DNA from: a virus | Virus record (IMG/VR): IMGVR_UViG_3300007512_000043 | Span: 1 to 57,433 of that record | Direction: 5' to 3' (one strand) | Length of the DNA: 57,433 nt | Shown here: positions 3,854 through 57,246 of the stretch, in pieces | Numbering within the stretch: position 1 is the first letter of the stretch | Layout of the letters: each line of letters opens with the position of its first letter | Made by a program: the position numbers and the translations under genes | The notes under the pieces: generated by a model | What the model saw: the letters and a program-made list of their open reading frames with translations, nothing else | Database searches by the model: none | Told to the model about the DNA's origin: nothing

Positions 3854-3859
3854 TGCTGA

Positions 3860-4015
3860 ATGAGTTGGCTAGACGACATCAAGGTGGTTTTTGCTTCATC
3901 CGCTGGTATAGGAAACTGGTGGATGGAGATTGATATTATCCTGAAACTAGCCATAAGTGCAGCCACATTGTTCTACATAATCCTCAAATGCCGTCACTTA
4001 TTGAAGCAAAAGTAA
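3860..4015 (+). CDS. 51-residue single-pass membrane protein
   Basis: This short gene lies between 3853 and 4020. It translates to MSWLDDIKVVFASSAGIGNW, then an acidic-hydrophobic boundary, a membrane helix (about 24-41, IDIILKLAISAATLFYIIL) and a basic C-terminus (KCRHLLKQK). That charge pattern fits a small inner-membrane protein. Its position directly before an exported protein and a holin-like protein suggests a lysis accessory role such as antiholin or pinholin (inference). The only upstream GGAGG is about 17 bases away, so initiation may depend on coupling to the previous gene. Confidence 0.45.
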   Translation: MSWLDDIKVVFASSAGIGNWWMEIDIILKLAISAATLFYIILKCRHLLKQK

Positions 4016-4019
4016 AACT

Positions 4020-34900: not shown

Positions 34901-37900
34901 ATCGATTCATCCTTGGCCAGCAAGGCGCAGGAAATCCAGCAGGCAGTCCCGATTGAAAAATATGAGGCAGGGGAGGCCGAGTATGCGTACACGCGGTACT
35001 CGACTGCTGAGCATTTAACTCAGGAGCAGTTGGTCACTAGGGAGATAGAGCCTGAGCACCCAGATGACGCAGGGGTAATTAACAAAAAACTTAAGGCTGA
35101 GAGTGAGGCTGTAAGGCTTTCCAGAGAGAAGGCGTTCAAGGAGATGGCTAGGCTTACCCCTGTCGACAGAAGGAAGATGCTCAAACACACAGAGGCTGTG
35201 TCCTTTAAGTGGCAAGACAAGCCTCAGGAGAGGATTCCAATGCCGGAGCCAAGCCAGAAGGTGCACAGGCAAAAGGAGGATGATGCAGGGCCAAGGCGCA
35301 TATATGAAATAAACAACGCTGGTCGGCTTGTTAATATTCCCAAGAGTAATTTATTCAACAACGCTTGGCGAAAGAGGAACGGACTTAAACTTGTTGAGTT
35401 CAGTGACGGGAAGTGGTGGCACGTTATTGGGGGGCCGGTGGTTCACACCAAGATGAGTGGGCCTAGGGTAACAACTGCTGCTTCTGAGGAGGTTCTCGAC
35501 AGGATGGCTGCAACAGCCCCGGTTACCCACGGGGAGAGGATGAGGCAGACTAGACTGAATCAGCCGCCGCCAAGCAGTGTAGTTGACCCGGGCAGAGATT
35601 TCGAAGGGAACACATTTACCCTGACTGAAGAGGGAGGGAAGAAGGTTCAGTCTATCCTTAACACATATACCAATACCCGTGAGTTCCTTGAGGAGATGGC
35701 AGACCGAATTGCTGACTACGGCAAGGGAGAGTTGGCCCATCAGCTTACTAAATTTGCAGAGGCTGGTCGCCCGGGACAACCATCAATTCATTTTAAGGAC
35801 CGTATCAAAAATCCTGCTGGCCGAGATGCCCTGAAGAGCTGGGCCAAGCGCGTGTCACCGGAAAAGTGGCAAGCAGTTGCTCATTACGCAGAGGAAATAC
35901 TTCTTACGGCTAACACTGGTGGCAGGGCGAATAGGTTCAGGGTAAGGGTAGAACAGGCAGAGAGAATCGGCCCGGTGATCCCCACTGATCTTCCTTGGGC
36001 GCAAGGGAAGAAACAGCTTAAGGACTTAATCAGCCGAAAGGACAACGGCCTAACCGATGAGGCGAGGGAGAAGGCGCTTAGGATAATAAACGAGATTGAT
36101 TCAGAGTTGCTGGACAATCTTTCCCTTAGGATAGGGGCAAGGTTGAACTCCAACGGGGACACAGAAGTGGATATCGTTGGTGAGTTCAACACTCTTGGCA
36201 ATCTCATTACACTTGCTGGCGATGTCAGTGTCGATCCAGATGTTCTGCTTGAGGAGATAGCCCACTTCACAGCTAGGGTCCTGCCTGAAAAACTTAGGAA
36301 CGAGGCCCGGGGGCTGCACAAGGCTGCGCTTGATGATGCGTTTAAGAAGAGCCAAGCCACCCCCGTAATGGCGAAGCATCCTCGTACTGAGGAAAAAATA
36401 ATTCAAGTCCGCCGTTGGGCGGCCAAGCACGTCTTGGTTCGCAAGGTGCTTGAGAAAATCAGAAAGGGTGAGGACGGTCAGTTAACCAGTGACGAGTACA
36501 GGGCTGTCCTACCTAGAATCGGTGACCTTGTCTCAGGCACAGGGAAAATGTCTGATACCGTGTCCGTTGATGCCGAGATGCTGGAAGATATTGTGAGGGA
36601 AACATATCATCTTGCAAACCCGGATGAGTTTTATGCCAACGCAATGGTCACAAGGGTTGGTGACTCCACATTTGATCGTGCCCGTGGGTTCCTCAAGAAC
36701 ATTCTTCGCGCAATAACTAGAGTGTTCTCCGGCAAGAGTGAAAGCGAAAAGGTTGATGACTTTGTAAGGAGGGCGCTTAAAGCACTAGCCAATCCTGATA
36801 AGCGCAACAAGGATATGCGAGGCATGCTTATGCGCCGCAACATTCTTGCGAAGGGAATGCGTGTGTTAAGCAGGGCTGATCGACTAAGGGATGCTGTGCT
36901 TGCGCTGAACGAAAGGGCGCAGGCAGCCGATGATCTCGGCAATACAGAAACGGCTGCTCGCCGCAGGGATGAGGTGAAGAGGCTTGTGTCTCAGGCGTCA
37001 GCAATCACGAATATATTTGATAAGGTTATAAGGAGGATAGCCCCTGACTTGTCTCCCAATAGCAAGGTTTGGGGGATGGTCAACATGCGTGACATAGATT
37101 TTGTTAACGATCTCCTTGAGGTGTTTCCGTCAGAGAGCGAGTACAGAAAGGTACTTGAAAAGTTTGCCTCGGATGGAAGGCATGAGCTTGGTCAAGCCAC
37201 TGCACTGTATGCAATGCACATGATACAGGAGATGGAGAGAGTTGCTAGGACACTGACCGAGAGGGCGGAAAAGAGATCAAAGGATGTAAGGGGCAAGAAC
37301 TTCCTGAAGTCGCTGACAGAATTTGCAAAGAAAGTAGGAGACAGCGCAGTAACCGGCAAAACCAAGGCTGATCTTACATCTGAAATAAAAGATGTCATCA
37401 GTATAGCAGCTACCGAGTTTGCCGAAACCGGGGACATTCGCGGACTGCTTGGTGGTGAGTTTGTGAGGGTTGCAAGTGAGGATGCAATACAGGCAGCACA
37501 GGACAAGGCCGGGATGATAGCCGCGAATATGGAGCAGATAGCCACCATCCTCACTGAAACAGCAGATGGTAGGGAGCTCCTCAACAGGGACGATATCAGT
37601 GAGGAAGCAACTGAGGAGGAGAGCCTGTCAATAACGGGAGAGCAGCTTGAGACTATCGCGCATGACATTTATCAGATTGTGGATTCTGTTCTGGCGGCAA
37701 ATCAAACCCCGATAGATATGATGCCTGACGATGAGCAGATTGCTTGGAGGGTTGCTGCTGGATTGTTTGCAGGTAATAAGAAAGCTAGGGAACACGCCAC
37801 GGTTTCGTCCTTCGGTGAGGAGGATGCGGAAATTTACAAGCGGGCTGTAGAAGAAGTTGCAAAGCTAAGGGATGGCTTGGAAAGCGGAAAGCTCAACAGT

Positions 37901-40900
37901 CAGAGCGCCTTTGACTCCTTTTCTGGGGATATGGACCTCCTGTTAGAGGAGGGGAAGCTTGCCTATGTTGCGCGTTATGCAATCAGATCGCCAATGCGAA
38001 GGATCAAGGACGCGCTCGACCACCGTAAGGCGGCTGATCTAGCAAGGGCCGTGATGAATGACCCTGAAATGCTGGACTACCGGCGGCAGGTTGGGATAGA
38101 TGCAAAGGTTGACGATGTTCCTGACCTGCTTGGTGATACTTTCTATGAGCAGTTTGTTAATGGTGAGGTAATCATTCCAGTCCCCCCAACTGATCTTGTT
38201 GAGGAGTTCGATCCAGATGGCAGGCTAAAGAGAGGGAAGGAACCCAATGTGAGGAAGTTCAGGTTCTTTACCGGCAAGGAAGAGGGAGCCAAAGAGAACC
38301 TGCTGGCTGCGTATGAGGCCGCAATAGACATTCAGAAGTGGCTGGATCAAGAGCTCAAGAAGACAACTCCTGTGATTGATGCTGAAACAGGGCTGCCTAT
38401 GCTTGACGAAAAGGGGGACGTTATTATGGACGACGCCCCGTTAAGTCCGTACTGGAATTTTTACTGGAACACTCTTCAGCAGTTACAGGCAGGGTTCCTT
38501 CATGACGCAGTGTGGAACGCGCCGGACGACATGAACCAGAGGGGTATGTTCAGGAATACATACTTCGGTGTTCTTCGCCACCTAGTTTCAGGCACGCCAA
38601 CAAGGGCAATGAAGATTGCATCCCGGTACGTTGATAAGCATGAGATGTACTACGTTCTGTTTGACTCATGGAAGGCAAACTTCAAGGCACCTTGGGCAAA
38701 CAAGTTACTGGATGCGGCAAAGTCTAGGCCGGGCAGGTTTGCGCTGGACGTTGGTGGCATCGGGCTAAGATGGGAAGAGCTAAAAGCTTGGGCTCAGGTA
38801 AGCAAGGATGCTCAGGTTGCCAAGGGTGTTGCAAACTGGGAGAGAACAATAGGCAGGCACCTCCGCGAAAGCTGGCAGGAAGGAGGTCAGGAGATTGGCG
38901 TAGGCGAGTTGCTTCCCAATGGTGAAATTGTAACCAAGGAAGATATGGCCCTCATTGACTTTGAGTTCAAGATGGCCAATGAGGCTTACGAGATTAACGA
39001 GCTTATAACTGACATCGACGAGAGCGTTCAGCCCCTGAGGGTAAACGACCAGACGGTCAAGACACTCAGAAGAAGGGCGCTAAAGCGAGGCAAGAAGATG
39101 CTTCCAAGGAGGTTCAGCACAAACGGGAGGAGCCTTGTCAGCAGGTGGAACAGGTTGAAGGATGATCTCAAGGGGGCTGATCTTTTTGATGCGGTATTCA
39201 GGAACGGCGAGGAGGGGTTCGAGGCAATGGTTTCATTCCTTAATGACAGGGACCCTGAGTGGATAACGGCACCAACCGAAGACGAGGAGGGCCGATTGAA
39301 ACCAAGGCCCGGCTCACCGAACGAGCATCTTTACAGCATTGTCGCTCAAGAGATACAGCAAAACGGCCCCGAGATGGAGCACACAACGAATGCTGTAATA
39401 AAGCTGCTGGCAGAGAAGGGCAGCCGAGGTGCCGATGATGTGAAAGTGGCCATCATGAACGAGCTTGAAGGGTCGCTTACAAATCTGAACAGGAGGATCA
39501 ACCCACCAGAGAAGGATGCGATGCTGGTTCAGCTTAACCACTCAAGCGGCCACTCCCCAATGACTGACGCGAGACAGGATAAGCTTGGCCCAAGCTTCTT
39601 CTACACGCACGGGTTTAACCACGAGGCTGAGGTCCAAAGCTTTACCAGTTCACTCCAGCTACCTGTTGCGAACGGGGTTATTAATGCACTGCGTTCAGCA
39701 TCTAGGGACTTGAATGATTTTATAAACAAGGGTGGCATCAAGGAGGCAATTGACGACGCTGTTGAAAAGCTGTACGGAAACAAAAAGAACCCGAACAAGT
39801 ACAGGTACAGCAACAAGGTCCTAAAGGAAGTAAGGAAGGAGCTTGGCATTGATACCGGGAGCAAGAACAACCCAGAGGTAGACATCTTCAACACAATCGT
39901 AGCTATTGACTCATTCACAAGGGACTATGAAGATGTTTACGGGGCAGGTTACAAGGACTTTACTGTTGACTTGATGCCTAAGCTTGGTCGCCGGGTTTGG
40001 TCTTCAATTGTTGGAGGCATCCTTGGGAACACAATGACTGCGATGCGTAACGTCTCGGAGACAGCCATTGGTGCAACCATAAACGTGCAGAGCCTCACTG
40101 GCGGAACGGGATTGCAGGCTGCGATGGCTGTCATTACTCGCGGGTATCTTGTTCACGCGCTAAAGCTTGGAGGCTCCCTAGCCAAGAGCTTGCTTAAGTT
40201 GTCGGTCTATCCGGTTGGAGGATTCAAGCAGGACAAATTTGTTCCGTTACTGCCCCTGCGTAGCGCAGTCACTAGCGGCTGGTGGCACCAGAAATACAGG
40301 AAGGGCCTCAAGCAGAAGTTAATGGGGATTAAGCCTGACATTACGATGCTAATTCAAGGGCTCTTTGATCCTATGATTGTTGAGCTTGCTCAGGTAATGC
40401 CAAGGAGAATTAATGAGCATAAGATTTTAGAAAGGCAGGGGCTTGGGATGCCAATCACCCCAACAGAAACGATGCTGAACTTCGGCCAGCTTCGTGAGAT
40501 GGGTGGGAGGATAATGGACGAGGTGTCTGCGGAGGAAACCAGCTCCTCCAATCCAGTTGCGGCCCTATGGAACCGGGGACTGTACAACTTGGTTGGACAT
40601 TGGGAGTCCTACATTGCGCTCTGGTTTAGACCGACGCTTCCAAGGATTGGGGACTTAGCGGCCAATAACATAATGGCTTCAATGGGTCATTATGTTGGGC
40701 ACAACCTAGAACGAAAGGCTCGGCTGGCCTTTGGCAGCAGGATGAAGAACAAGGTGGCCCTTGATGAGGACATAACCCCACAGGAGTTGGTGGGTAACTT
40801 CCTAGGTTTACTTGAGGCTAACAGGGTTACTTGGAATAATGTTGAGGAGTTCCTGTCTCAGGCTGGTGTTACAAACTTTAAGGATCAGGTAAGGAAGTTC

Positions 40901-42205
40901 TGGAGGGAACTCCAGACTGCCCCGAATGATGAGGCAAGGAGGAATGTAAAACTATTCAAACCAAAACAACTGGACCGGATGGCAGCGATCATTGTCATGA
41001 CAAACAACCATCCGACTCCAGCCAACCGCCCGTTATGGATGAAGACCAATGTGATGAACTCTGTCCTGTTCGCTCTCACTGGCTGGTCGTTCAACCAGTT
41101 GCAGAACTGGGCGAAGTCAATGCCGGGCACGGGGTATAAGACGCGAGGAGACAAGTCAGTGATGCAGGGGTTTGTCCAAAGGGCTCAAGCCTTTTTAGTA
41201 ATGGCCGCAGCTTTGGGCATAGCCATACCCGACAACTGGCTGCTTGAATACCTAGCCAGAATGGCAGACAGGCAGCTTTATGGGCGAAGAAGGGTTGCCC
41301 GTTTGCCAAATGAAATGCAGGGAACAAAGAACCAGATGTGGGCAACTGCCGGGCTGGCATTTCAGTCCGTGCCCCTCTTCGGAGGCACACTTGCCGCACT
41401 TGCACACGATCTTCCCGGCAGGCCGCAGCATCTTCCTGCCAATCTTCTGATGAGTCAGGTTGGGAATGCCATCCGGTGGGGAATGGAGATGAAGGAGGCT
41501 GGTTTATATCTCCCCGATACTAAGAACAGGGAGGTGGTTTTAGAATGGATGATTAATCAGTCAGTAAACGCAGCCAACCGGGCTCTGCCGATGACAAGGA
41601 TCATCACCTCCAGAATAAGTCCTCACCAGAAAGCCCTGCTGAAAACAATCAATGCAATAAGGGCCGTCAAGGCAAACTATGGTGACCCGAAGGCTACAAA
41701 GAGTACCGCAGGCTGGTCGGGGCAATACCAATACAGGCAGTCCAGCTTATGGAGCCCGTACAGGGAGCTCTGGGCGGCGGCTGTCGAGAGCGGTGACCTG
41801 AACGAGGCAAGCAGAATATTTGACGAGGCAATCCCGGTTTTCATTGCGGCGAAGAAGTACGCAACAGGGGACAAGGTTTGGGATTCGCCGGGTGCTTGGG
41901 ACAAAGCCAAGAGAAGTATGGAGCAGAGCTTAAAAACTATGAACCCGGTAAGGCGTTCGCTTAGGTCAGTTCCAACAAGGGATATGTTCTGGAGGAACTT
42001 AACTCACGTCAACAAAATTGATCGTAACTATATTGAGACGAGCATTCGAAACTGGGAAAATGCGTATGCGGAGTTCGGGTGGACAGGGCTATTCGCCAAT
42101 GAGCCTGTTAGGGAAAAGCCTCCAACGGTTCCACCCCCCTCGAAAAGAATCCCCAGCTACAGGCCTAAAAGTCAGGGTCCAAGGTCGAGGGTTCCGGGCG
42201 GCTAG
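28961..42205 (+). CDS. Giant (4,414-residue) polyvalent-type ejected virion protein
   Basis: This single uninterrupted frame covers 13.2 kb. In order: a charged N-terminus (1-150); an Ala/Gly-rich hydrophobic region (about 316-417) that could insert in a membrane, including an EEGADQFIEQ phrase common in large phage ejection proteins; an acidic linker; a Pro-Glu linker (about 696-730); a compact domain with SLNGRFIKLVDVNGIKVPFY (about 934-977); long helical sections; a segment LLEEIAHF (about 2427) that resembles a metallopeptidase helix but lacks the first His; and a C-terminal hydrophobic and Trp-rich region with PLWMKTNVMNSVLFALTGW (about 4024). No polymerase motifs found. The style matches multi-domain polyvalent proteins injected with phage DNA. 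The 3' end overlaps the convergent integrase gene. Confidence 0.65.
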   Translation: MPQGTYPSLNYGGQRRRQSGPRPRVSGAYMPFTSYEDFDAYSKKLSEAQQAYKDYEDYLKSIEDERERERQRRRKIIEDPEYAKLYSERYRVGQENLKDTPSRVAAHLEQGIKSTGESLYKQYTEAYEASAYLLGADYERLKELREERKAAEQMMEEQKAERLKGIRGGSGSEFAYEAGQAAAQEAPFLAASAGTGRIVSGTVKKGLEKSAAKKAVAVEAALKEAPVSAAGRASAMEAQRVSAAERIAKLTEKTNRQASVATMGAIHGDRKFSSSSAANYDIMYPQVYSALEAQNRDGEFSPKELARMADEQTREIAIAPSLAAGAATTALVTTFGATGVESLFANTASRITARNAISTLGKGFGFEFTEEGADQFIEQVIQKHTLREDRPWEDIISETWHAATIGGVVGVKYSGIGLVARAPKEVDLRWRERQGRKALERIQSRDFFISYIKEQNPELSDEVVREKARELADGVADIKERARLRSSGATEEEIEDQSAINQLISEDQLDQLESEGVDVSDERTKNVELKVFYDRGVTAAQTNENAEDIIEEIERDYGAVAATKFAEGFNQTKATDELSEPEVGEEQAEPETVPAEEPTGPDIEAPVDVDVEEEKPEVPLEGEEKLEALAKEYWEAGEAESFKSARPIIKEFDELAEELGYDHMDRIVEEDSVLAEIFYKHAPEHQKPALEEAEKGAAPAPEPAPEPVAEPEPAPEPAPEPEPTEAEAETAEAPGTERTDLTGVKEGDIINLFDPRGRPVPREVTAINADSTTVTTKEPGNPDDPGSSISDEGIYSTISTKSEDFEIGTIEGSPPVSSLTDEELQHALGRQQEIIDSKKKHGQPYEWVARNYNAIKYEQRRRAEEPETEIGIESQLSESPSDEAFFGPPDLRQPGQPTPPAEEKPLPVNMIPYTESKYNSKTQTFDKVKGESEYVSLNGRFIKLVDVNGIKVPFYLSTGRAGKENVPEGKWYPIFGVSTATGWLNKGTQSQILDYYGSPALRDAAKKLDDEVGDIRAADVPRLASGMTKRKGKKGWSDPSTLEAIEFINNALGVTALKRDEALKKDDDGVKGIDKNIRTVLSAIEGESSPTESKGQVVFNALAAAGDLINPELVGRGTLEGEALSLGSMLEGRDETEPPPGFSYDRNFNLVPLKPGEKREPVRIEVKRENLKIPPNNLLIIGSHIKRTTGRGRGGVEYHKSIDGFLPSGHKAEEVLLPFRFAGENRPMAFIRYNKEGGKIQVGYFVRSAGPSPFRFKPTHTLKNSERYEYRTPNGTLKGFKIPTSLTTSKAIVNEKNWERLPSKYSGKLERAEAAATPDSHLIRRFIDHISSPVLKRQLNLMWNNGLDRWKNPQGSIDEGVIPPMLSLEGIAATILVANQFKKGTGSKRGKYARTLISTGKMEELANSFESAIKTLRNSDSYTKTVLNDKGTPKKTVNALLRRHDLLLRATKGLSPGQTQELISKWEEEQVKSTAEFDVKQFLNAMEMVAAINKTHKARELTLNDIIFVDKGQADEYFTGAVFTPDQRGQSRAYQVAIGKAPPRVKKIEDVTAEVVSDREVKTTTVDEDGALKDEGYARAYGIEITDSNRIPLSVLVKGLKELMPDIDFSTQELPDGTGRGTEKTEVERIKFDVDPTQKKKTGTSFMDVTGGKGGAKTTTARAKRAIPGRVIKRTQLNLTPLNPEALTEEKLLTVRAAIKFISKKASRIKDFQPSARWTAANKKKLKLERLKAKKDFNDKLKKFWNASEDELADLAKKEETQFFKDIARWLLQPNSKKGTTWAQFIKNNSTTDAVGGIKRGPDLTKAEKAYLSRGLTIKETKLLQEEGGSEADWAGMLTAGKIQSYASDQLAGVLKEGEEKPEATQGFLPLTTPDAGPPDIVTEEIHLVKDQLKDRVKKFRLDGRQFYIIDTTGKEDLGFWYTFNAKEATKEEFGGYGTGEDWVQLPMSEVKTELQAKNRILDQVNKSNDNLSVLGMAALIDSSLASKAQEIQQAVPIEKYEAGEAEYAYTRYSTAEHLTQEQLVTREIEPEHPDDAGVINKKLKAESEAVRLSREKAFKEMARLTPVDRRKMLKHTEAVSFKWQDKPQERIPMPEPSQKVHRQKEDDAGPRRIYEINNAGRLVNIPKSNLFNNAWRKRNGLKLVEFSDGKWWHVIGGPVVHTKMSGPRVTTAASEEVLDRMAATAPVTHGERMRQTRLNQPPPSSVVDPGRDFEGNTFTLTEEGGKKVQSILNTYTNTREFLEEMADRIADYGKGELAHQLTKFAEAGRPGQPSIHFKDRIKNPAGRDALKSWAKRVSPEKWQAVAHYAEEILLTANTGGRANRFRVRVEQAERIGPVIPTDLPWAQGKKQLKDLISRKDNGLTDEAREKALRIINEIDSELLDNLSLRIGARLNSNGDTEVDIVGEFNTLGNLITLAGDVSVDPDVLLEEIAHFTARVLPEKLRNEARGLHKAALDDAFKKSQATPVMAKHPRTEEKIIQVRRWAAKHVLVRKVLEKIRKGEDGQLTSDEYRAVLPRIGDLVSGTGKMSDTVSVDAEMLEDIVRETYHLANPDEFYANAMVTRVGDSTFDRARGFLKNILRAITRVFSGKSESEKVDDFVRRALKALANPDKRNKDMRGMLMRRNILAKGMRVLSRADRLRDAVLALNERAQAADDLGNTETAARRRDEVKRLVSQASAITNIFDKVIRRIAPDLSPNSKVWGMVNMRDIDFVNDLLEVFPSESEYRKVLEKFASDGRHELGQATALYAMHMIQEMERVARTLTERAEKRSKDVRGKNFLKSLTEFAKKVGDSAVTGKTKADLTSEIKDVISIAATEFAETGDIRGLLGGEFVRVASEDAIQAAQDKAGMIAANMEQIATILTETADGRELLNRDDISEEATEEESLSITGEQLETIAHDIYQIVDSVLAANQTPIDMMPDDEQIAWRVAAGLFAGNKKAREHATVSSFGEEDAEIYKRAVEEVAKLRDGLESGKLNSQSAFDSFSGDMDLLLEEGKLAYVARYAIRSPMRRIKDALDHRKAADLARAVMNDPEMLDYRRQVGIDAKVDDVPDLLGDTFYEQFVNGEVIIPVPPTDLVEEFDPDGRLKRGKEPNVRKFRFFTGKEEGAKENLLAAYEAAIDIQKWLDQELKKTTPVIDAETGLPMLDEKGDVIMDDAPLSPYWNFYWNTLQQLQAGFLHDAVWNAPDDMNQRGMFRNTYFGVLRHLVSGTPTRAMKIASRYVDKHEMYYVLFDSWKANFKAPWANKLLDAAKSRPGRFALDVGGIGLRWEELKAWAQVSKDAQVAKGVANWERTIGRHLRESWQEGGQEIGVGELLPNGEIVTKEDMALIDFEFKMANEAYEINELITDIDESVQPLRVNDQTVKTLRRRALKRGKKMLPRRFSTNGRSLVSRWNRLKDDLKGADLFDAVFRNGEEGFEAMVSFLNDRDPEWITAPTEDEEGRLKPRPGSPNEHLYSIVAQEIQQNGPEMEHTTNAVIKLLAEKGSRGADDVKVAIMNELEGSLTNLNRRINPPEKDAMLVQLNHSSGHSPMTDARQDKLGPSFFYTHGFNHEAEVQSFTSSLQLPVANGVINALRSASRDLNDFINKGGIKEAIDDAVEKLYGNKKNPNKYRYSNKVLKEVRKELGIDTGSKNNPEVDIFNTIVAIDSFTRDYEDVYGAGYKDFTVDLMPKLGRRVWSSIVGGILGNTMTAMRNVSETAIGATINVQSLTGGTGLQAAMAVITRGYLVHALKLGGSLAKSLLKLSVYPVGGFKQDKFVPLLPLRSAVTSGWWHQKYRKGLKQKLMGIKPDITMLIQGLFDPMIVELAQVMPRRINEHKILERQGLGMPITPTETMLNFGQLREMGGRIMDEVSAEETSSSNPVAALWNRGLYNLVGHWESYIALWFRPTLPRIGDLAANNIMASMGHYVGHNLERKARLAFGSRMKNKVALDEDITPQELVGNFLGLLEANRVTWNNVEEFLSQAGVTNFKDQVRKFWRELQTAPNDEARRNVKLFKPKQLDRMAAIIVMTNNHPTPANRPLWMKTNVMNSVLFALTGWSFNQLQNWAKSMPGTGYKTRGDKSVMQGFVQRAQAFLVMAAALGIAIPDNWLLEYLARMADRQLYGRRRVARLPNEMQGTKNQMWATAGLAFQSVPLFGGTLAALAHDLPGRPQHLPANLLMSQVGNAIRWGMEMKEAGLYLPDTKNREVVLEWMINQSVNAANRALPMTRIITSRISPHQKALLKTINAIRAVKANYGDPKATKSTAGWSGQYQYRQSSLWSPYRELWAAAVESGDLNEASRIFDEAIPVFIAAKKYATGDKVWDSPGAWDKAKRSMEQSLKTMNPVRRSLRSVPTRDMFWRNLTHVNKIDRNYIETSIRNWENAYAEFGWTGLFANEPVREKPPTVPPPSKRIPSYRPKSQGPRSRVPGG

Positions 42206-45509: not shown

Positions 45510-46619
45510 TTACTTCTTCTGGATTACGCTGTCAGTAGCCGAGGTAACCTTGATCACATCGCCTAGTTGTTGCTCCATAAAGTCTTCGCCGTCCAATGCC
45601 TTTGCTGCTGTTGATGCAAGAGTCCGGTACTTTGAGTAACTAATACTGCACGAAGCGAAGAACTCCTCGTCAGTTATTCCCAAGCTCTTGGCCAAGTCAA
45701 AGGCCTTCTTGGCGTCCGTAAGCTTGCTGATTTTTCTGCCCTTCTTGAGGCCGAAGCCCGGTATACTTGTGGAGCTGTTTGCCAGTAGTTCCCGTGCTTC
45801 TGCTTTCCTCTGGTTCCATATGTTCTCAACCATTGAAGATGCTTCACGGGCCCTGTAAAGAACAGCAGCCCTGTTCTCTGGGGTTAATTCAGACAGGGGT
45901 TTGTCCAGCTCTCCCATTGAGTCCTCTACCCTCCAAGAAGCAGCAGGGCATATTGATATAGCTTTACACCACTTGCATGAATCCAGTGATGGCATCAGCG
46001 GTGGATTGTCTGCACGGGCAGCAGCCACAACCTTGAGGATTTTCTTTTCAAACAGGGCAAGATCAGCTTCCGTGAACGTGGCTGATATAGCCTTGCCGTA
46101 CTGTGATTCCGGTTGATTGAAGGAATACACCACGCTTTTACCCGGTGTACCTATGTAGCGGTGGAAGAGTAGGCTTTCGGTCATCGCCTGCCAGTTGCCT
46201 TCAACTGATTCTTGACCGAGACCTGTTTTGTAGTTGACCAATACGGTGTTCCCGTTTAGTTTATCAATACCACCAACGTCGATCTTCCCGCTGAACAATC
46301 TGTCGCCATCATCCCACTCATACCACAGTCTGATCTCACGAACCAATGTGTCACAAGTTTCCAGTAAGACTGCGTCAAAATCCTGCATCTCCTTGGCAAC
46401 CAATGCTTCCTCTGGGGATAGTTCAACATCCTTCCCTTCCATTCTTTCGTGAACTCTAGTTCCTCTTTCAGCATACGGGGAAGCTGGCTCAGGTGGGGCT
46501 TTGCCGCTCATTCGGTGGGAGCCGGGGCATGATGCCAGCCTATGAATACCAGACGCAGAGGGCAGCCCCATCCTCTCATCACCCGCTGGCACCGGGTCAT
46601 CTACTATTACTTTACTCAT
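45510..46619 (-). CDS. Cas4/RecB-like PD-(D/E)XK exonuclease (DUF2800 type)
   Basis: This 369-residue protein is read from the ATG at 46619 (MSKVIVDDPVPAGDERMG). It has a cysteine in LASCPGSHR near the N-terminus and CKWCKAISIC near residue 223, the four-cysteine pattern of an iron-sulfur cluster in Cas4- and AddB-type nucleases. Between them lie SGKIDVGG and VLVNYKTG, giving the D and x-x-K of the active site. The C-terminal third is helical. A 158-base gap with a three-way-junction structure (46633-46769) lies directly upstream. It probably resects DNA ends for single-strand annealing with the ATPase encoded upstream. Confidence 0.8.
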   Translation of the reverse strand: MSKVIVDDPVPAGDERMGLPSASGIHRLASCPGSHRMSGKAPPEPASPYAERGTRVHERMEGKDVELSPEEALVAKEMQDFDAVLLETCDTLVREIRLWYEWDDGDRLFSGKIDVGGIDKLNGNTVLVNYKTGLGQESVEGNWQAMTESLLFHRYIGTPGKSVVYSFNQPESQYGKAISATFTEADLALFEKKILKVVAAARADNPPLMPSLDSCKWCKAISICPAASWRVEDSMGELDKPLSELTPENRAAVLYRAREASSMVENIWNQRKAEARELLANSSTSIPGFGLKKGRKISKLTDAKKAFDLAKSLGITDEEFFASCSISYSKYRTLASTAAKALDGEDFMEQQLGDVIKVTSATDSVIQKK

Positions 46620-46632
46620 GTTTAAAAAGATC

Positions 46633-46769
46633 GCCACAGGAAATCCAATAACATGTCTCAGGGAGGAACCACACAACCATCGAACATGTCACGGGCATTG
46701 GATTTTTTAACCCGAACATAGCACTTATATCATGATCAAACCATATGAGTGCGCCCTTAAACCTGTGGC
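46633..46769. ncRNA. Putative structured RNA or structured DNA site: perfect three-way junction
   Basis: Three stems abut without any unpaired base at the junction. P1 is GCCACAGG (46633-46640) with CCTGTGGC (46762-46769). P2 is AAATCCAAT (46641-46649) with ATTGGATTT (46697-46705), extended inside by ACATGT (46651-46656) with ACATGT (46684-46689). P3 is TTTAA (46706-46710) with TTAAA (46757-46761), extended by GCACTTATAT (46721-46730) with ATATGAGTGC (46743-46752), one T-G wobble. The wobble pairs only in a plus-strand RNA and becomes an A-C mismatch in a minus-strand RNA. It lies in the leader of the Cas4-like gene if read on the minus strand. It could be a regulatory RNA, an antisense RNA or a folded origin-type DNA. 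Confidence 0.6.
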
Positions 46770-46777
46770 TAAATTAC

Positions 46778-47707
46778 TTACTTGCTCAACGCGACAGCGG
46801 TTGACAGGAAAACTTGAGGTTTATCCAGTATCGAGTCAGCATAGCTTTGACTAATGCTCTGCCATGTTTCGCCGTCCTTTATCTGGCCTCTCATAACAAG
46901 GAACTTGTGTATCAGTAGCTCCTTGCCTGAGAACAATTGACTTAACTTGTCCTTTGCCTCCTTTGTTAGAGCATCCTCAAGAGCTCCGTTTGATTCCGGC
47001 TTGGGCTCTGGCTTGGGCTCTGGTTTCTCACTTGCGGGAGGCGTGTCGGCTTCATCTGAAGAGAGCCAGTCCTTAATCATAGAGGCAAGTTCTTCACCCG
47101 GCCTAGCGAACACCATACCTGACAGCTCTGGACATCGGCTCTTCTCTATTGTGATGTTGTTCATTGTGTCCATCACGCCGAATAAGTCGAACTCGTAGTC
47201 GATACCGTCACGCTGCTGTGTGGCTAGGCCGATCTTTGCAACACTGACCTTCCCCTTGTCATCCTTCTCCTGTTCATACGCCTGCTTCATTCTCATTGTT
47301 GCAATGAGGTGGCCGGGGTGTGTCATCAGCGTATCCAGCAACAGATTGTGCAGTGGGGTTACCTTGCCCCAAGCGTTGAATGATTTGCCCTGCTTCCCAA
47401 CCAAGTCTAGCGCCCCATCTCTGCCCATCCAAGCGTGGCTTAAGCTGTCCACAATAAGGACATCGTAATCTGATGCTGCCTTGATTGCATCCACATAGCT
47501 TTGCGGGTGGTGTGTCTCCAACTGCGCCACATCAAAATCAAACTTGTTAGAGTAAATCTCTGCGCTTGATCTTTCTGTGTCCAATAGTGCCACACTCTTG
47601 CCGAGCTGATGTGCCAGCCTTAGTGCGGTGTATGTTTTGCCGCTGCCAGCAATACCGGCAATGGCCATCCTTAATTTCCTATTACTTCTTTGTGCTTTTT
47701 TATACAT
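46778..47707 (-). CDS. Sak4-like RecA-fold ATPase
   Basis: This 309-residue protein has Walker A GIAGSGKTYTA (about 18-28) and Walker B DVLIVDSLSHAW (about 81-92), followed by a Thr/Gln-rich strand (HLIATMRMKQAYE), the layout of phage AAA_24 / Sak4 recombinases. A Lys/Pro/Glu linker (PEPKPEPKPES) leads to a small C-terminal helical domain. It probably promotes single-strand annealing together with the nucleases downstream. The start overlaps the previous small gene by eight bases. Confidence 0.75.
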   Translation of the reverse strand: MYKKAQRSNRKLRMAIAGIAGSGKTYTALRLAHQLGKSVALLDTERSSAEIYSNKFDFDVAQLETHHPQSYVDAIKAASDYDVLIVDSLSHAWMGRDGALDLVGKQGKSFNAWGKVTPLHNLLLDTLMTHPGHLIATMRMKQAYEQEKDDKGKVSVAKIGLATQQRDGIDYEFDLFGVMDTMNNITIEKSRCPELSGMVFARPGEELASMIKDWLSSDEADTPPASEKPEPKPEPKPESNGALEDALTKEAKDKLSQLFSGKELLIHKFLVMRGQIKDGETWQSISQSYADSILDKPQVFLSTAVALSK

Positions 47708-47858
47708 CTCTTGTAACGATTGCTTTGTTTTTTATTCCGATTCGGATGAATTGCGATGCGGCTGCACCGACCTTCATCCCTGTATTCTTACACCACTTCT
47801 TTAAAAGCAGGTGTGTCTTACCATCTATAGTTAGTGACTGTGTCTTTACATCCTTCAT
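47700..47858 (-). CDS. Small RHH-like or basic regulator
   Basis: Read from the ATG at 47858 this is 52 residues (MKDVKTQSLTIDGKTHLLLK), with a strand-helix-helix pattern similar to Arc/ribbon-helix-helix proteins; alternative starts are at 47891 (ATG) and 47903 (TTG). No ribosome binding site fits any of them. It is the first gene after the terminator at 47927-47955 and a promoter-like site, so it may regulate its own operon (inference). Confidence 0.45.
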   Translation of the reverse strand: MKDVKTQSLTIDGKTHLLLKKWCKNTGMKVGAAASQFIRIGIKNKAIVTRDV

Positions 47859-47899
47859 ATGTGAAGAAGGACAAAGGATGTCCCACCGCATCGGCTTGG

Positions 47900-47928
47900 T
47901 CAATATTATTATTCATATTAATTAACAA
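47900..47928 (-). promoter_or_regulatory. Candidate promoter of recombination operon
   Basis: On the minus strand TTGTTA (47928-47923), a 17-base spacer and TATTGA (47905-47900) form a sigma70-like pair. It lies between the terminator and the first gene of the operon. The -35 overlaps the T-run of the terminator. The -10 is a weak match. Confidence 0.35.
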
Positions 47929-48489: not shown

Positions 48490-49367
48490 GGTGCTCTCTC
48501 GTATTTTGACTCGTTCTGATTATATGGTACTCACATTATTGATGACTCGCTCACTCAGTATGGTTCTCTTATTTTTAGTGACTCGCTCTTGCAGTATGGT
48601 TCTCTCTTTCGAAGTGACTCGCTCTATCATATTGGTTCCACTCATGGACAGTGGCTCGTTCGTCGGATCTGGTTCTCACTTTTTTAATGACTCGTTCGGA
48701 ATGACTGGCTCTATCGGGTAATATGACTCGTTCGGGGTGCGGGGTTCTCTCAAATAGTATGACTCGTTCGGTTCTAATGGTTCTCTCCTATTCGTTGACT
48801 CGCTCCGTATCTCTGGTTCTCTCGATGTATGTGACTCGTTCGTTCATAGTGGCACACTGCTGCTGCATAACTCGTTCGGGGATGATGGTTCTGCTTATGA
48901 TCTTTGACTCGTTCTGCTCCAATTGATTCTCTCAGGTCACATGACTCGTTCTATTCATTTGGTTCTCTCCTTGGTACTTGACTCGTTCATTACCAGTGGT
49001 GCTGTTCTGTAGTAGTGACTCGTTCCAGTCTGATGGCTCTCTCGAATATGGTGACTCGTTCAACTTTCTTGGTTCTCTCAAGTTAAATGCCTCGTTCAGT
49101 AGGGGTGGTTCTCTCTTATACAATGACTCGTTCTCAGTCTTTGGTTCTCTCAGCCAAGATGACTCGTTCGCGTATACTGGTTCTCTCAGTAGGCATGACT
49201 CGTTCGACCAAGATGGTTCCCTCAACAACTTTGACTCGTTCTAGTTCTCTGGTTCTCTCGGAATGACTGACTCGTTCTGGACTAATGGTTCTCTCGAAAA
49301 CGATGACTCGCTTCTGCCTTCTGGTTCTCTCAAGACCTATGACTCGCTCGGCAATCAAGGTTCCCTC
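48490..49367. repeat. Two-box repeat array: 24 units of 36-37 bp, about eight-base variable spacers
   Basis: On the plus strand each unit is TGACTCGTTC, eight variable bases, TGGTTCTCTC, eight variable bases. Without the leading T, A boxes start at 48508, 48544, 48580, 48616, 48653, then on to 49341 (24 copies: 15 exact GACTCGTTC, 5 GACTCGCTC, 4 with one other change). B boxes lie 18-19 bases after each A box (24 copies, 12 exact GGTTCTCTC), plus one degenerate B at 48490-48500. Nineteen unit steps are 36 bp and five are 37 bp (ending at 48653, 48906, 48943, 48980 and 49017) when the step count includes all shifts in the series. Spacers share no sequence except a terminal T. The two boxes fit one 18-bp consensus, TGRYTCKYTC. 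No gene is credible here. Confidence 0.9.
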
Positions 49368-50113
49368 TATTGGCCGGGCTTATTGTATTCCGCTATTATT
49401 TTTTCAGCATCCCAGCCTAGCTTTAGCTTGTCACTAACGTAGTCTGTTGGAATGCCGAATGCGTCAGCGAAGTCTTTCTGCGATATGTAGATAGTCTTCG
49501 TCGAGTGTCTGACTACGGGCTCCTTGTTGTCGTCGCCTGTCGGAATGTTGGGAACATATGTGTAACCCTGCTCCACCACCAGCCTATCAACCTCCACATA
49601 GTTTGGCGGGACATCGAACCCAAAGGATTGTTCAAGGGTCCAGCCCTTGTTCTTCCTCGCTATTATCGTTTGGTACTTTGCGAACAGCGGGAACGGGTAG
49701 GCCCCGTCCTCAATCTGTCGCATAAGTTCCCTAACTGAACCCCCTTCCAGCACCTCGCCTCCGTTAGGAAGCCTCAGCCTCAGGTTCTCTTCAACCACCG
49801 GAGTGACATGATCGAGACACTTGTCAGGGGTAATGTCGTTGCCGGGTATCAGATCGAACAGGCTTACAACCTCATGCTTATCAATAGCAAAGAACTCCCG
49901 CTTGTCGCTGACCCTCTTGCTTGCCAGTGCCGAGTGTATCTTAGACTCAATGAAGTTGGCATCATCAACCTCCTTTGCGTAGATACATTCGAAGGGGGAA
50001 GGTACGTTCGTGTCAAACAACTGCTTCATCCTCCTCTCCAAGTTGCCGGTTTGCCCTATCTTCACAACGCACGGCATTGATGCGTTCGTAACTGCGTATA
50101 TTATACCGTTCAT
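49367..50113 (-). CDS. GIY-YIG domain protein (T5orf172/MUG113-like)
   Basis: This 248-residue protein begins MNGIIYAVTN, then VVKIGQTGNLERRMKQL with the catalytic Arg, and has the Glu in FIESKIHSAL, all of the GIY-YIG nuclease core (1-90). Two copies of a short DNA-binding-type motif follow: IARKNKGWTLEQSFGF (about 165) and KLKLGWDAEKIIAEYN (C-terminus), like the NUMOD helices in homing endonucleases. Its stop codon overlaps the last bases of the repeat array. The start is behind GAGGAG. It may cut DNA or act as a repeat-binding protein; the link to the array is by position only. Confidence 0.75.
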   Translation of the reverse strand: MNGIIYAVTNASMPCVVKIGQTGNLERRMKQLFDTNVPSPFECIYAKEVDDANFIESKIHSALASKRVSDKREFFAIDKHEVVSLFDLIPGNDITPDKCLDHVTPVVEENLRLRLPNGGEVLEGGSVRELMRQIEDGAYPFPLFAKYQTIIARKNKGWTLEQSFGFDVPPNYVEVDRLVVEQGYTYVPNIPTGDDNKEPVVRHSTKTIYISQKDFADAFGIPTDYVSDKLKLGWDAEKIIAEYNKPGQ

Positions 50114-50122: not shown

Positions 50123-50200
50123 TCAGTCGTCTGTCAGTACCAAGTAATAGAAATACAAGGTCATTACCAATGATGCGAATGCCAGTATCATGAGAATCAT
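50123..50200 (-). CDS. 25-residue membrane peptide
   Basis: Short frame MILMILAFASLVMTLYFYYL then VLTDD. It starts inside the previous stop (ATGA overlap with the gene ending at 50197) and ends ten bases before the GIY-YIG start, leaving room for its ribosome binding site. The whole peptide is one membrane helix with an acidic tail. The tight coupling supports it as a real gene. Function unknown. Confidence 0.5.
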   Translation of the reverse strand: MILMILAFASLVMTLYFYYLVLTDD

Positions 50201-50991
50201 GCCGCCTTTATATGGTGCACATGGCCCATATGCGCTATGGGATAAGGCAACGGCGGGTCTGTCTTGTAGTGCTCACGGTATGCCGTCTCATGCCAGTGCG
50301 CCAAGAACAGCTTGACCGCATATCGCTTGGCTCTGGCGTGAATGTGGCCCGGCGGCAGCTTGCCAACCGAGTAGTGCTTGTATGCCTCGGTGTTCTTTCC
50401 GACCCGCTTGGCACCCTCATCTGCCTGAGACTTGTACATGAGTACGCTGTTGTTTGCAGTCTCAAGCACCTTGCGTTGTTCATAGTACTGACCATAGATG
50501 TCCTTGTCCCTTGACTTAACCTTCACGAATGACTCACCTATCTTCCAGCACAGTGTCTTTAGGCTGGCGTTCCAAGGGCGCTTCTGTCCCTTGCCCCACT
50601 TGCACGTTGGGTCCTGACCTGCGTACCTCCAGATGTGTCCGACAGTAGGGGCCTTGGTGATGTCGATATGAGCAAGAAGGCCAGCCGCAATCACAGGGCC
50701 GATCCCGCATATACCCATAGACCACTGCCCCACTGGGTCAGCCTTCGCATACCTGTTCAGCGACCTCTTGATGTTGTGCTCAAGGTCTTCGTTGACTTCA
50801 CCAACCCACTCAAGCAATGAGCTTGGCTCGTTTGTGCCTGCCAAGCTTCTCACCTGTGCTGCTGCCCTTATTCTGCTATCTTGTATCTGATAGTATGTGT
50901 CCACTAGGAACCTAGCTTCATCTGATGAGAGCCTTGAGCTCGCATCAAGCAGGTCCTTGTCCAGTTTTATTCTCTCTCTTCCTTCGCTCAT
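50197..50991 (-). CDS. Stand-alone IS110 Transposase_20-like protein
   Basis: This 264-residue protein contains GICGIGPVIAAGLLAHI (about 93-110), a helix-hairpin-helix segment, then GHIWRYAGQDP and KRPWNASLKTLCWKI. This is the order seen in the C-terminal Transposase_20 domain of IS110-family transposases. The N-terminal RuvC-like DEDD domain of those enzymes is absent; instead there is a helical 85-residue N-terminus. No insertion sequence ends are seen, and it is locked in an operon by ATGA overlaps on both sides. It is likely a domesticated DNA-binding protein. Confidence 0.6.
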   Translation of the reverse strand: MSEGRERIKLDKDLLDASSRLSSDEARFLVDTYYQIQDSRIRAAAQVRSLAGTNEPSSLLEWVGEVNEDLEHNIKRSLNRYAKADPVGQWSMGICGIGPVIAAGLLAHIDITKAPTVGHIWRYAGQDPTCKWGKGQKRPWNASLKTLCWKIGESFVKVKSRDKDIYGQYYEQRKVLETANNSVLMYKSQADEGAKRVGKNTEAYKHYSVGKLPPGHIHARAKRYAVKLFLAHWHETAYREHYKTDPPLPYPIAHMGHVHHIKAA

Positions 50992-53495: not shown

Positions 53496-55028
53496 TTATT
53501 CAACGATTACCGGAATGTAACCGTAAGTTCTTTGTGGTAGTACAATGGAATCACAGGCATTCACGCCAACGAAGATGGTTGGCACGCCTGACTCGGTCAT
53601 GCTGTCATAACAGAACCCCATATCTGTCACGAATATAGCCCAGTCGTAGTCGTGCTTCTTATCCCTCAACCAGTCTATCGCTGGCTGCATGTCCGTGCCT
53701 CCGCGCCCCAGCCACTCACGGGGTACCGTAAGAGGCAGGTCGTTGTAGTTGTATTCACGAATGCCACGCTCATGTATTGTGGCATCGCACTGCACCATTG
53801 TGATCTCTGCCTTCGGCCATTCCTCCAGAACCTTGCTGATCTGGACGATAGCCTCGTCGCATTCACGGTGACCCATACTCCCGCTGGTGTCTGTGATTAC
53901 CGCACCCTTGGTCTTACCCTTGGTGCGATTGGACGGGAAGATAACATCGCCCATCGTGCGCCTGCGGTGTGGCCGCTTGTGATTGCGCCCACCCAAGCAT
54001 GACTTGTGGATGTACTCACGGAGCTTTGACCAGTTATTCGCAGCCTTCTTGGCAATGGAATTTTCTATGTAATCAATCCCATACCCTGCGCCCCTGCCTT
54101 GCTGCTTCATGAGCACCACTGCCTGAGTTGCTGTCTCTTCGTACTCGGCCTCGGCATGATCCATCCCCTCCTCTTCAATGACGGGACTGTCATCAACCTC
54201 GCCAACCACAGTGCTGTCTCCGGTTATCTCTTCAAACTTTTCAGTAAGAGACTTGCCGCTGCTCGCTGTACCCCCGCTGGATGTGGCATCTCCACTGCCA
54301 CCAGCATTGCTGTCGCCGTCAGTATCGCTGTCACCATCACTGCCGTCGCCGTCGCCGTCGCCGTCGCCCCCGTCGTCAGGCTTCTTGTCGCCGTCGCCCC
54401 CGCTGGTGGTGCTGGACTCTTCATCGTCAGGCTCGCACCCTTCGCCATTCTCTCCGCCATCTCCGCCTTCACCATCCTCGCACGGCTCGGTGATGCCTCC
54501 GTGTGGAGGCTCAGGAAGATCGGCAATGTCCTTCTCAAGCTCACGGTAATACCATTCAGCCGACTTTAGGTGAGGGAACTTTGCCCAATCACCTTCTCTT
54601 GGCATGAGTATCTTGACCTTGTTGATCAGCTCGTCCCAAACGTCCAGCTTGATGATGTAATCCCTGAGCAGTGAGTTGATAGCCAAGTCACCGGCCACAT
54701 TGTAGCCCTTGTGATTTCGGTCACCCCTTCTGACGTGGTGCCCCAGCAGCAGGTGCATTGCCTCATGCAACACCACCCACTTGACGGCATCCGTGCTCAG
54801 CTTATCCACAAACTTGGGATTATACTTGAGCACTCGTCCATTGGTACACATGGTCGGGACGCCGTGATCCATAACAACCTTCCACTTGGCAATCCACGGG
54901 ACGCCAATTGGATGGAAGTCGAAGATGTAATCATGACCCAGATCAACCTTCAACTTCGCTCTCTTCATTATGTCATCCAACAAGCTGTCGGCTGACTTCA
55001 TCGCTTCTTTTAATTTAGTATTGCTCAT
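53496..55028 (-). CDS. Metallopeptidase-VWA protein (DUF2201 type)
   Basis: This 510-residue protein is read from the ATG at 55028 behind GAAAGGAACC. The N-terminal domain has VLHEAMHLLLGHHVRRGD, an HExxH zinc site at 88-92 in a metallopeptidase-type helix. The middle (about 180-260) is an acidic Asp/Gly/Ser low-complexity linker. The C-terminal VWA-like domain has DTSGS (380-384), a Thr in GGTD (about 446) and VTDMG (about 469), a full metal site. This two-domain layout is the one found next to MoxR ATPases, one of which is encoded two genes upstream. It would be a substrate adaptor, protease or chaperone partner. Confidence 0.8.
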   Translation of the reverse strand: MSNTKLKEAMKSADSLLDDIMKRAKLKVDLGHDYIFDFHPIGVPWIAKWKVVMDHGVPTMCTNGRVLKYNPKFVDKLSTDAVKWVVLHEAMHLLLGHHVRRGDRNHKGYNVAGDLAINSLLRDYIIKLDVWDELINKVKILMPREGDWAKFPHLKSAEWYYRELEKDIADLPEPPHGGITEPCEDGEGGDGGENGEGCEPDDEESSTTSGGDGDKKPDDGGDGDGDGDGSDGDSDTDGDSNAGGSGDATSSGGTASSGKSLTEKFEEITGDSTVVGEVDDSPVIEEEGMDHAEAEYEETATQAVVLMKQQGRGAGYGIDYIENSIAKKAANNWSKLREYIHKSCLGGRNHKRPHRRRTMGDVIFPSNRTKGKTKGAVITDTSGSMGHRECDEAIVQISKVLEEWPKAEITMVQCDATIHERGIREYNYNDLPLTVPREWLGRGGTDMQPAIDWLRDKKHDYDWAIFVTDMGFCYDSMTESGVPTIFVGVNACDSIVLPQRTYGYIPVIVE

Positions 55029-55062
55029 ACTGTATGGTTCCTTTCTGATTACTGGCAAGTAA

Positions 55063-56118: not shown

Positions 56119-57246
56119 TTACAGGTTCTTCGCCTGTAAATCCTTGTAGGCTTGGTGCGAGGCCACCGTCATCCTGTCTTTCGCCATTCGAAAGAAGTTC
56201 GCTTGGTATTCCTCGGGCCACCGACCTGCGTAATCGCAGAAAGCCCTTGTCTTCGCACGGTCTTCAATGAACATGCCCTTCTCATCCTGAGGGGCAGCAT
56301 CTTGTACCATTGAGATACTGGTTGCGTAGTACAACCCCGGCTCCTTCGGGAGCTTGCAACCCTTCGGGTCTTTGAAGATTTCCCCGGGCTGTGGACACTC
56401 ACTCATTCGTGTGCGGAACTCCTTCATTGAGTTGCCCACGTTGCGCCCAACTGTTCCGAAGATACATGCTTCAACCACCTTTGGATTGGTGCTCCACTTG
56501 GTGCCAATCTCATAGCATGACTCGATGAGTTTGGATGCCCAAGTAAATGTCCTTGAGTTGCACCTTGCGTGCTCGGCATAGGACACTGGCTCCCCGAACA
56601 CCTCGTCCTTCTGGTACTTGGCAAAAGCCTGAGCCCAAGCAGGGACGTTGTTATTCTGAGCCCATTGAACATACCCATCAACGGCTTCCTCACTCTGATG
56701 CGCCACATACAGATGCGTCAGCCTTGTGGACAACGCTTCCGTAAACGGTGTGGTTCCGATGTCACTCTCACCGTTACCGGCGGCAATGACCCTGACACAA
56801 TCGTAGAGGCGTGCACCATTACACATCCTGTCGAGGATGAGTTGCAGTGCCACGTTCAACACCTCTTGCATCGAACGATCCAGCTCATCAAGAAACATCA
56901 GACACTTGTCAGTCCATTCCCCTTTGAGGTTCTTCCAACGCGGTTTGATCAGCTTGCCCTTATCGTCAAACTTCTCAAACGGTATCACATTGGATGACTG
57001 GAGCCACTCAACGCACTTGTTCACCCTGTCTGCGACAGGCAGTCCAGCCAGATCGGGCGGCTCTTTGTCCGAACAACGAACATCGAACAACGCCCAGCCC
57101 AGCATCTCGGCAATCTGCCTGACGATACTGGATTTTGCACAACCCGGTGGACCCCACAACATGACGGGCTGGTTGACATTAACACAGACCATCAGTGCTG
57201 ACTTGATTGTGGCTATCGGATAGGTAACAGCTTCACAGCTATTCAT
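56119..57246 (-). CDS. MoxR-family AAA+ ATPase
   Basis: This 375-residue protein is read from the ATG at 57246 behind AAAGGAACC. Walker A GPPGCAKSS (about 32-40), Walker B CLMFLDELDR (about 105-114), sensor-1 VIAAGNGE, and an arginine finger region LSTRLTHL. The D-L-A-G-L-P phrase after Walker A is characteristic of MoxR-type ATPases. It would work with the coiled-coil and VWA/metallopeptidase proteins encoded next to it, remodelling or activating a target. It is the first gene of the early operon in the window. Confidence 0.85.
   Translation of the reverse strand: MNSCEAVTYPIATIKSALMVCVNVNQPVMLWGPPGCAKSSIVRQIAEMLGWALFDVRCSDKEPPDLAGLPVADRVNKCVEWLQSSNVIPFEKFDDKGKLIKPRWKNLKGEWTDKCLMFLDELDRSMQEVLNVALQLILDRMCNGARLYDCVRVIAAGNGESDIGTTPFTEALSTRLTHLYVAHQSEEAVDGYVQWAQNNNVPAWAQAFAKYQKDEVFGEPVSYAEHARCNSRTFTWASKLIESCYEIGTKWSTNPKVVEACIFGTVGRNVGNSMKEFRTRMSECPQPGEIFKDPKGCKLPKEPGLYYATSISMVQDAAPQDEKGMFIEDRAKTRAFCDYAGRWPEEYQANFFRMAKDRMTVASHQAYKDLQAKNL

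Follow-up and report, generated by a model that had tools for sequence, protein, structure and literature searches.

A conserved three-way-junction RNA between Sak4-like ATPase and nuclease genes of metagenome-derived phages

Results

Comparison of homologous intergenic gaps shows a conserved three-way junction of helices P1, P2 and P3, read in mRNA sense, between a Sak4-like ATPase gene and a nuclease gene in a group of phages, and its pairing has evidently been kept by compensatory changes. The RNA element itself is established; its function carries less certainty. The stretch analysed, here called the window, is a virus record of 57,433 bases, and its right part is a minus-strand operon according to the list of open reading frames and their PHROG and Pfam matches. 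The gene upstream of the element encodes a Sak4-like AAA_24 ATPase of 309 codons (46778..47707, minus strand; phrog_1366, 3e-68; phrog_124, Sak4-like, 4e-12; PF13479), and its start at 47707 overlaps the preceding ORF (47700-47903). The downstream gene encodes a DUF2800 / PD-(D/E)XK (Cas4-like) exonuclease (45510..46619, minus strand; phrog_69, 2e-34; PF10926; PF12705), which begins with the ATG at 46619-46617 of the minus strand. Two more PD-(D/E)XK endonucleases, a DnaB-like helicase and an integrase belong to the same operon, and a RusA-like resolvase match lies near the element. Between the Sak4 and nuclease genes is a gap of 158 nt (46620-46777). The initial annotation had described the operon as otherwise gapless, which holds as far as the next genes, where the gaps, given the gene starts that we chose, are 2, -71, -11, -16 and 6 nt.

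Other features of the record were noted in passing. A single open reading frame of 4414 aa (28961-42205) takes up slightly under 1/4 of it. The product of 53496-55058 carries conflicting labels, 'HNH endonuclease' from phrog_1314 and DUF2201 metallopeptidase plus VWA-like domains from Pfam, and together with a MoxR-like AAA ATPase (56119-57291) it resembles a MoxR-VWA pair. The gene at 50197-50991 is a transposase according to PHROG (phrog_4285, 3e-51), and its sole Pfam match, an IS110-type transposase family, is below the cut-off (E 0.0027). Positions 48505-49370 hold an array of two 10-mers, TGACTCGTTC and TGGTTCTCTC (plus strand), alternating every ~18 nt with ~8 nt of unlike letters separating them. 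A corresponding array is found at about 3330-4320 of the related contig L007; at up to 2 mismatches there are 25 and 22 copies in the window and 24 and 24 in L007, with a small number out of register. Long reading frames through the array are broken by occasional +1 steps, and it could be a binding array (origin, partition or packaging).

The junction is flush and is recovered exactly. The element spans 46633..46769 on the minus strand, to which all of its parts belong. It is closed by P1, in which the 5' arm GCCACAGG (mRNA sense, 46762..46769) pairs with the 3' arm CCTGTGGC (46633..46640), as established by a coordinate check and the covariation alignment. The same alignment places P2, formed by AAATCCAAT (46697..46705) and ATTGGATTT (46641..46649), and P3, formed by TTTAA (46757..46761) and TTAAA (46706..46710), the latter continuing into an A-rich linker. 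These are base for base the helices that the initial annotation had proposed from the window, and they meet, as it had said, with zero unpaired bases, positions 46640/46641, 46705/46706 and 46761/46762 being adjacent. It had also judged such an arrangement very unlikely to arise by chance. No flush junction whose helices reach 8, 9 and 5 bp, as they do in the window, appeared among dinucleotide shuffles of the gap (0/400), and a chance origin was rejected on this basis; a relaxed junction of at least 6, 6 and 4 bp occurred in 1/400.

Two of the proposed details required revision. P2 had been given 9 bp, and its coordinates are correct, but the last two pairs (46648 and 46649) compete with a conserved upper stem, P2b. 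The 5' arm of P2b is GTGAC (46688..46692), followed by ATGT, and its 3' arm is GTTAT (46648..46652); both were placed by hand, the window being gapped at P2b in the model alignment. The ten extra pairs assigned to P3 were located, in a variable hairpin (46721..46752) that lies outside the model. By eye, a hairpin of this kind was readable in L007 only.

The element recurs after Sak4 in related viruses. Related loci with the same gene pair came from protein scans of IMG/VR. A folded gap is found at the same place in nine contigs (the window, L003-L007, L019, L020 and L027), directly after Sak4 in every case. They represent seven distinct sequences, as the element is identical in L004 and L005 and likewise in L019 and L020, and the alignment A7 omits L005 and L020. 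We built a covariance model, R1, from L003, L004, L019 and L027 only, with P1, P2, P2b and P3 set by us and the window excluded. Against all 57,433 bases on both strands and up to E 10, R1 gave a single match, full length, at 46633-46769 on the minus strand (20.9 bits, E 0.011; E-values are rough owing to a short calibration), with P1, P3 and P2 in the initially proposed register. At the homologous place beside the same gene pair it also matched L006 (E 0.035) and L007 (E 0.042), neither of which was used in building it. A second model, R2, matched the window with E 1.4e-10, the window being part of that model.

Among 38 loci, R1 returned 16 rows, comprising 14 known members or their duplicate loci and two chance rows (L030 and L032), and it gave no match on 58 further loci or on 5 pattern loci. 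R2, run on 84 sources with duplicates left out, returned the seven members and two chance rows (L037 and L030). Seven contigs carry the Sak4/nuclease pair without the element (L002, L055, L023, L024, L025, L026 and L028), and R1 had no match in them or in their duplicate loci. In whole records, some of which are fragments, R1 matched 8/18 and R2 3/10, at one place each, so that the element is present in one copy per matched record and nowhere else in it; a first look had missed the L007 record. A mobile or repeated element was rejected on these counts. DNA pattern scans of viral_contigs yielded 24 and 9 stretches, with the full-length element (by R1) on already known contigs only. In the genome collection, 0 of 23 candidate stretches obtained through Sak4 alignment were confirmed and a pattern scan gave 0. 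Annotated phages included 26 records with short matches to 46400-47000, the best at E 0.6 and none spanning 80%; among annotated phages, relatives of Sak4 were found in 408 records and nuclease relatives in 42, all below 60% identity. The phages with the element are known here solely as metagenome-derived virus records.

Pairing is maintained while the letters change. The initial annotation had proposed to test homologous gaps for compensatory changes in P1, P2 and P3, and such changes are present. In the seven members of A7, 17 of the 23 pairs carry two-sided changes, spread over 34 cells, and 96.8% of 157 cells pair; because A7 was fitted to the model these statistics lean towards structure, while the held-out matches and the raw sequences are independent of the fitting. 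None of 500 shuffles reached the A7 covariation values, and when partners were slid by 1-3 columns as a control no more than 6 pairs showed two-sided changes. All seven members have P1 and P2 in full, and the compensation in these helices is visible in the raw gap sequences too. In P1, 56/56 cells are paired and 6/8 pairs changed on both sides, and in the modelled P2 the figures are 100% of cells and 6/6 pairs. The closing stem differs in its letters between members, being GCCACAGG/CCUGUGGC in the window, GACGCAGG/CCUGCGUC in L004, GAUGCAGG/CCUGCAUC in L019 and ACCAGAGGGG/CCCCUCUGGU in L006. P3 is the weakest helix, with 85.7% of cells paired, two-sided changes in 2/5 pairs and a length of about 3 bp in L027; it reads UUUAA/UUAAA in the window versus UUUCC/GGAAA in L003. 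Including flanks (161 nt), the element of the window is 80% identical to that of L007, against 43-45% at four-fold sites of the two neighbouring genes. Its identity to the other five members is 44-52%, against 31-45% at four-fold sites, which indicates that mainly the pairing is kept there.

Folding energies favour another fold in two members. The element is predicted to fold with greater stability than its shuffles, at -38.9 kcal/mol on the plus strand (z -3.9 versus shuffles) and at -43.1 kcal/mol on the minus strand (z -2.3 versus shuffles). In the window the lowest-energy fold is not the junction (-44.5 versus -40.6 kcal/mol with the junction forced over 161 nt, a difference of 3.9), and the same holds for L007 (-45.2 versus -39.0 kcal/mol, a difference of 6.2). 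In the other five members, forcing the junction (in L027 without P3) costs 0-1.2 kcal/mol relative to the minimum. The junction is argued from its homologues and not from the energy of the window sequence by itself.

A pseudoknot is conceivable within the junction. In 7/7 members a hand placement gives GGGC or GGGU, which lies immediately 3' of the P3 5' arm (GGGC at 46753..46756 in the window), a complementary partner in the bulge that separates P2 from P2b, namely GCCC, GCUC or ACCC (GCCC at 46693..46696 in the window); in L006 the contact is extendable by hand to GGGUGA/UCACCC. In the covariation analysis 92.9% of the 28 GGGC/GCCC cells pair, 213/500 shuffles are as good and L006 is misaligned by one there; with so little variation at the contact, covariation speaks neither for it nor against it. 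In the lowest-energy fold predicted for the window GGGC pairs with GCCC and excludes P2 and P3, and a switch between the two folds is possible in the window.

The element is best read as mRNA-sense RNA. Read on the mRNA strand, the 157 modelled cells of the seven members comprise 142 Watson-Crick, 10 G-U, 2 A-C and 3 other combinations; on the opposite strand the G-U and A-C counts swap, and the window contributes no G-U or A-C to them. The excess of G-U over A-C on the mRNA strand is modest. Overall, the best reading of the element is an mRNA-sense RNA, with good support for the strand, and not an ORF, an antisense RNA or a DNA structure. The initial annotation had seen a hint of an antisense transcript in the wobble T46726-G46747. 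That pair does favour the plus strand, being C-A on the mRNA strand, but it sits in the variable hairpin outside the model, whereas R1 matches the minus (mRNA) strand only and the modelled cells lean towards that strand as well. Antisense RNA was rejected on account of the wobble's location and the strand of the model match.

Spacing around the element is narrow. In 7/7 members the layout is the Sak4 stop codon, 3-8 nt (8 nt in the window), a fold of 108-137 nt closed by P1, a leader of 12-17 nt and a start codon. The leader is 13 nt in the window (46620..46632) and runs AU-rich from P1 to the nuclease start codon; over the seven members 81/96 of its bases (84%) are A or U, with no clear Shine-Dalgarno in any of them, a duplex score of -5.8 in L007 deriving from letters of P1. 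From the Sak4 stop to the nuclease start are 158 nt in the window and in L007, 126 in L006, 137 in L004, 139 in L019, 138 in L003 and 360 in L027, and the short distance typical of translationally coupled pairs is thus missing from the element carriers. By our own reading of the listed starts, leaving out Sak4 and the first gene and with one start uncertain, six starts in the window are separated from the preceding listed stop by more than 6 nt; an AAGG- or GAGG-type site precedes 5/6 of them but is missing before the nuclease. Sak4, PDDEXK14, DnaB and the integrase also lack a Shine-Dalgarno-type site, and each overlaps or nearly touches the preceding ORF, so the absence before the nuclease is only suggestive. 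An intrinsic terminator (GC-rich hairpin plus U-run) was searched for on the minus strand from 46300 to 47100 and none was found, and a terminator or promoter reading was rejected, with nothing of either kind at the element.

Relatives without the element have the spacing of coupled pairs. In the five measured, the stop-to-start distance is -11 nt (L002), -4 (L055), 7 (L023), 7 (L025) and 4 (L026). L002 groups with L006, which has the element, in the trees of both proteins (11 Sak4-like rows and 12 nuclease rows; support 84/87 and 100/100). At 3224-3234 of L002, an ATG in frame with the nuclease ORF, at which that ORF can start, overlaps the end of Sak4 (ATGTTAAATAA), a natural control for loss of the element. 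In L027 a 71-codon ORF with a GTG start (5071-5286) is found between element and nuclease, 4 nt ahead of the nuclease ATG; its hand translation had no match in Pfam at E up to 0.05. This inserted ORF directly follows the element and also lacks a Shine-Dalgarno, and the element stays beside Sak4. Among the initially proposed roles, one in cis between both genes fits best; a riboregulator tied to the Cas4-like nuclease gene is not supported, as in L027 the nuclease comes only after another small ORF.

Discussion

The reading that we prefer, although we would put it somewhat short of an even chance, is that the fold acts as a structural bridge, keeping stop and start close so that translation of Sak4 would still feed the next gene. 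Ribosomes finishing Sak4 would halt at the base of P1. As the two ends of the fold are joined by P1, a ribosome or subunit still on the mRNA could, we propose, pass across the junction base to the AU-rich leader and restart at the ORF beyond it, and coupled expression would be retained across a gap of 126-158 nt. A terminating ribosome should open part of P1, so the fold could in addition determine how much ATPase is made relative to nuclease. A stronger version, in which this would be a ribosome bridge of a bacterial virus with roughly 90-120 nt inside P1 neither melted nor read and a restart on a Shine-Dalgarno-free AU-rich site, appears rather unlikely to us.

Several observations are consistent with the structural bridge. 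The structure is kept, as indicated by the held-out R1 matches, the 17/23 pairs and the 0/500 shuffles; the G-U to A-C count agrees with the strand, and position after Sak4, spacing and leader recur in all seven members. Only the nuclease, of six well-spaced starts in the window, is without an AAGG/GAGG-type site. Relatives that lack the element have overlapping or near-touching genes, including L002 beside L006, and in L027 the ORF inserted after the element has no Shine-Dalgarno either. Plant-virus shunts share the layout, in the passages of PMC5902531 that describe them. The main counter-argument is a screen of random sequences in which, according to part of the review PMC12548453, coupling was negatively correlated with structure immediately behind the stop codon; the element could accordingly uncouple the two genes instead. 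Further points against a bridge are that a four-member core keeps loop letters (ACGGCUGU..CUACG..GA) beyond what a plain spacer needs, that another fold is lower in energy in the window and L007, and that the literature matches listed contain no bacterial shunt.

Those loop letters bear on a second explanation. Three-way junctions are common folds of protein- and ligand-binding regulatory RNAs, and the junction may be recognised by a small molecule, or by a protein of phage or host, whose binding would switch downstream translation or stability, in the style of an autoregulatory operator or a riboswitch. Loop and linker letters are kept in the four-member core, where many columns are invariant (15 are so in all seven members); GGG, the A-run and the CCC bulge (CUC in L004) recur in 7/7, and the alternative window fold, in which GGGC-GCCC replaces P2 and P3, makes a switch possible. 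The core's conserved apical loop is, however, missing from the window, L007 and L006, there is no Rfam family match, the next gene in L027 is not the nuclease and the gene functions suggest no metabolite. We consider such a binding site unlikely, if worth serious attention.

Independent ribosome entry, by which the fold would present the AU-rich leader to the 30S subunit (for example via protein S1) and Sak4 translation would be irrelevant, is improbable. It would account for an AU-rich leader 12-17 nt past P1 with no clear Shine-Dalgarno in 7/7, and an intergenic IRES has been reported to drive translation in E. coli in a paper with S1 in its title (PMC9458429, as far as its available part goes). 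It leaves aside that the element begins 3-8 nt past the Sak4 stop in 7/7, which entry does not need, and that the measured element-free relatives are tightly spaced. A stable folded intercistronic RNA might also serve mRNA processing or stability, by separating the Sak4 and nuclease transcripts or shielding an end from exonucleases, but with no terminator-like site at the element and with the narrow spacing to the next start codon left unexplained, this is quite improbable.

The initial annotation also suggested a DNA structure for branch nucleases or an initiator. A single-stranded DNA junction of this kind, or a small mobile insertion such as a foldback element, would fit the absence of the element from some relatives (L002 and L055), its inverted-repeat ends and the nearby RusA-like resolvase match. 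Against this are the G-U excess over A-C of 10 to 2, the maximum of one copy per searched record, fixed between two ORFs and at the same place in nine contigs, and pairing that stays while letters drift, which together make a DNA-level role highly improbable. A small protein gene is scarcely credible, as the frame that is open through the gap in the window and L007 has no codon pattern (differences by codon position of 10/4/10, versus 37/18/142 in Sak4) and the open stretches in L004, L006 and L027, read by eye, are in other frames or interrupted; a protein-coding gap was rejected on the codon counts.

We rate the element as a new RNA family within a broad class already known, the structured intercistronic mRNA elements. 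At gathering score, Rfam 15 had no match in the window or in five loci; at E up to 10, the element regions gave Sphinx_2 in the window, tpke11 in L003 and none in L027, all below gathering. The element is likewise undescribed among the listed open-licence PMC matches on bacterial shunting, on coupling with RNA structure, on phage three-way-junction RNAs and on intercistronic hairpins, and among those on candidate structured RNAs and on Sak4/Cas4. This structured RNA combines strong covariation with the absence of an Rfam match, and its location from stop to start offers a small, clean test of whether RNA structure can replace short distance in bacterial coupling, with natural controls in related phages that have the element (L006) or lack it (L002). 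If the bridge is true, the element would also be a handy part for operon building.

A structured RNA known as the DUF2800 RNA motif is said to sit upstream of DUF2800 genes. Rfam 15 (4227 models, which may or may not include this motif) has no match to our element, on which ground a known Rfam family and the motif were set aside, and a search for DUF2800 RNA in the open-licence PMC literature gave no match. The nearest phage cases, compared by description only and from part of one source (PMC2988022), are structured or untranslated RNAs between phage genes. In T4-like phages, RNA hairpins before homing endonuclease genes hide the ribosome site with one exception, a very stable hairpin just upstream of a site that is not hidden, and phage 44RR has an intercistronic untranslated sequence (IC-UTS) between 43A and 43B (PMC2988022). 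Translational coupling is shared in that the same gene pair overlaps or is at most 7 nt apart in the five measured relatives and in that there is no downstream Shine-Dalgarno. Prokaryotic termination-reinitiation coupling weakens as the gap grows, by the account in part of PMC12548453, whereas here the gap is 126-158 nt and contains a conserved fold.

Among the open-licence PMC matches listed, the layout of the element was found described in eukaryotic viruses only. The dicistrovirus intergenic IRES, which initiates without initiator tRNA, is also a folded RNA between two ORFs that places the ribosome on the second, a comparison made by description only. It is a triple pseudoknot of a eukaryotic virus (PMC9458429). 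If the bridge is true, the element would be a bacterial counterpart, with none described among the literature matches listed, of the ribosome shunt of plant pararetroviruses, in which, according to passages of PMC5902531, an upstream ORF ends before a basal helix and a UA-rich landing site follows the stem. The CaMV and RTBV shunts resemble it in that a stable basal helix closely follows the end of an ORF, and in having a folded RNA with a UA-rich landing stretch right behind the stem (PMC5902531, same passages), and in our seven members the ORF stops 3-8 nt before the basal helix and an A/U stretch of 12-17 nt (81/96 bases) with a start codon follows the stem. The shunts differ in being eukaryotic, with cap-dependent scanning and a short uORF, whereas the element belongs to phages, follows an upstream gene of 309 codons and is a fold of 108-137 nt known from sequence.
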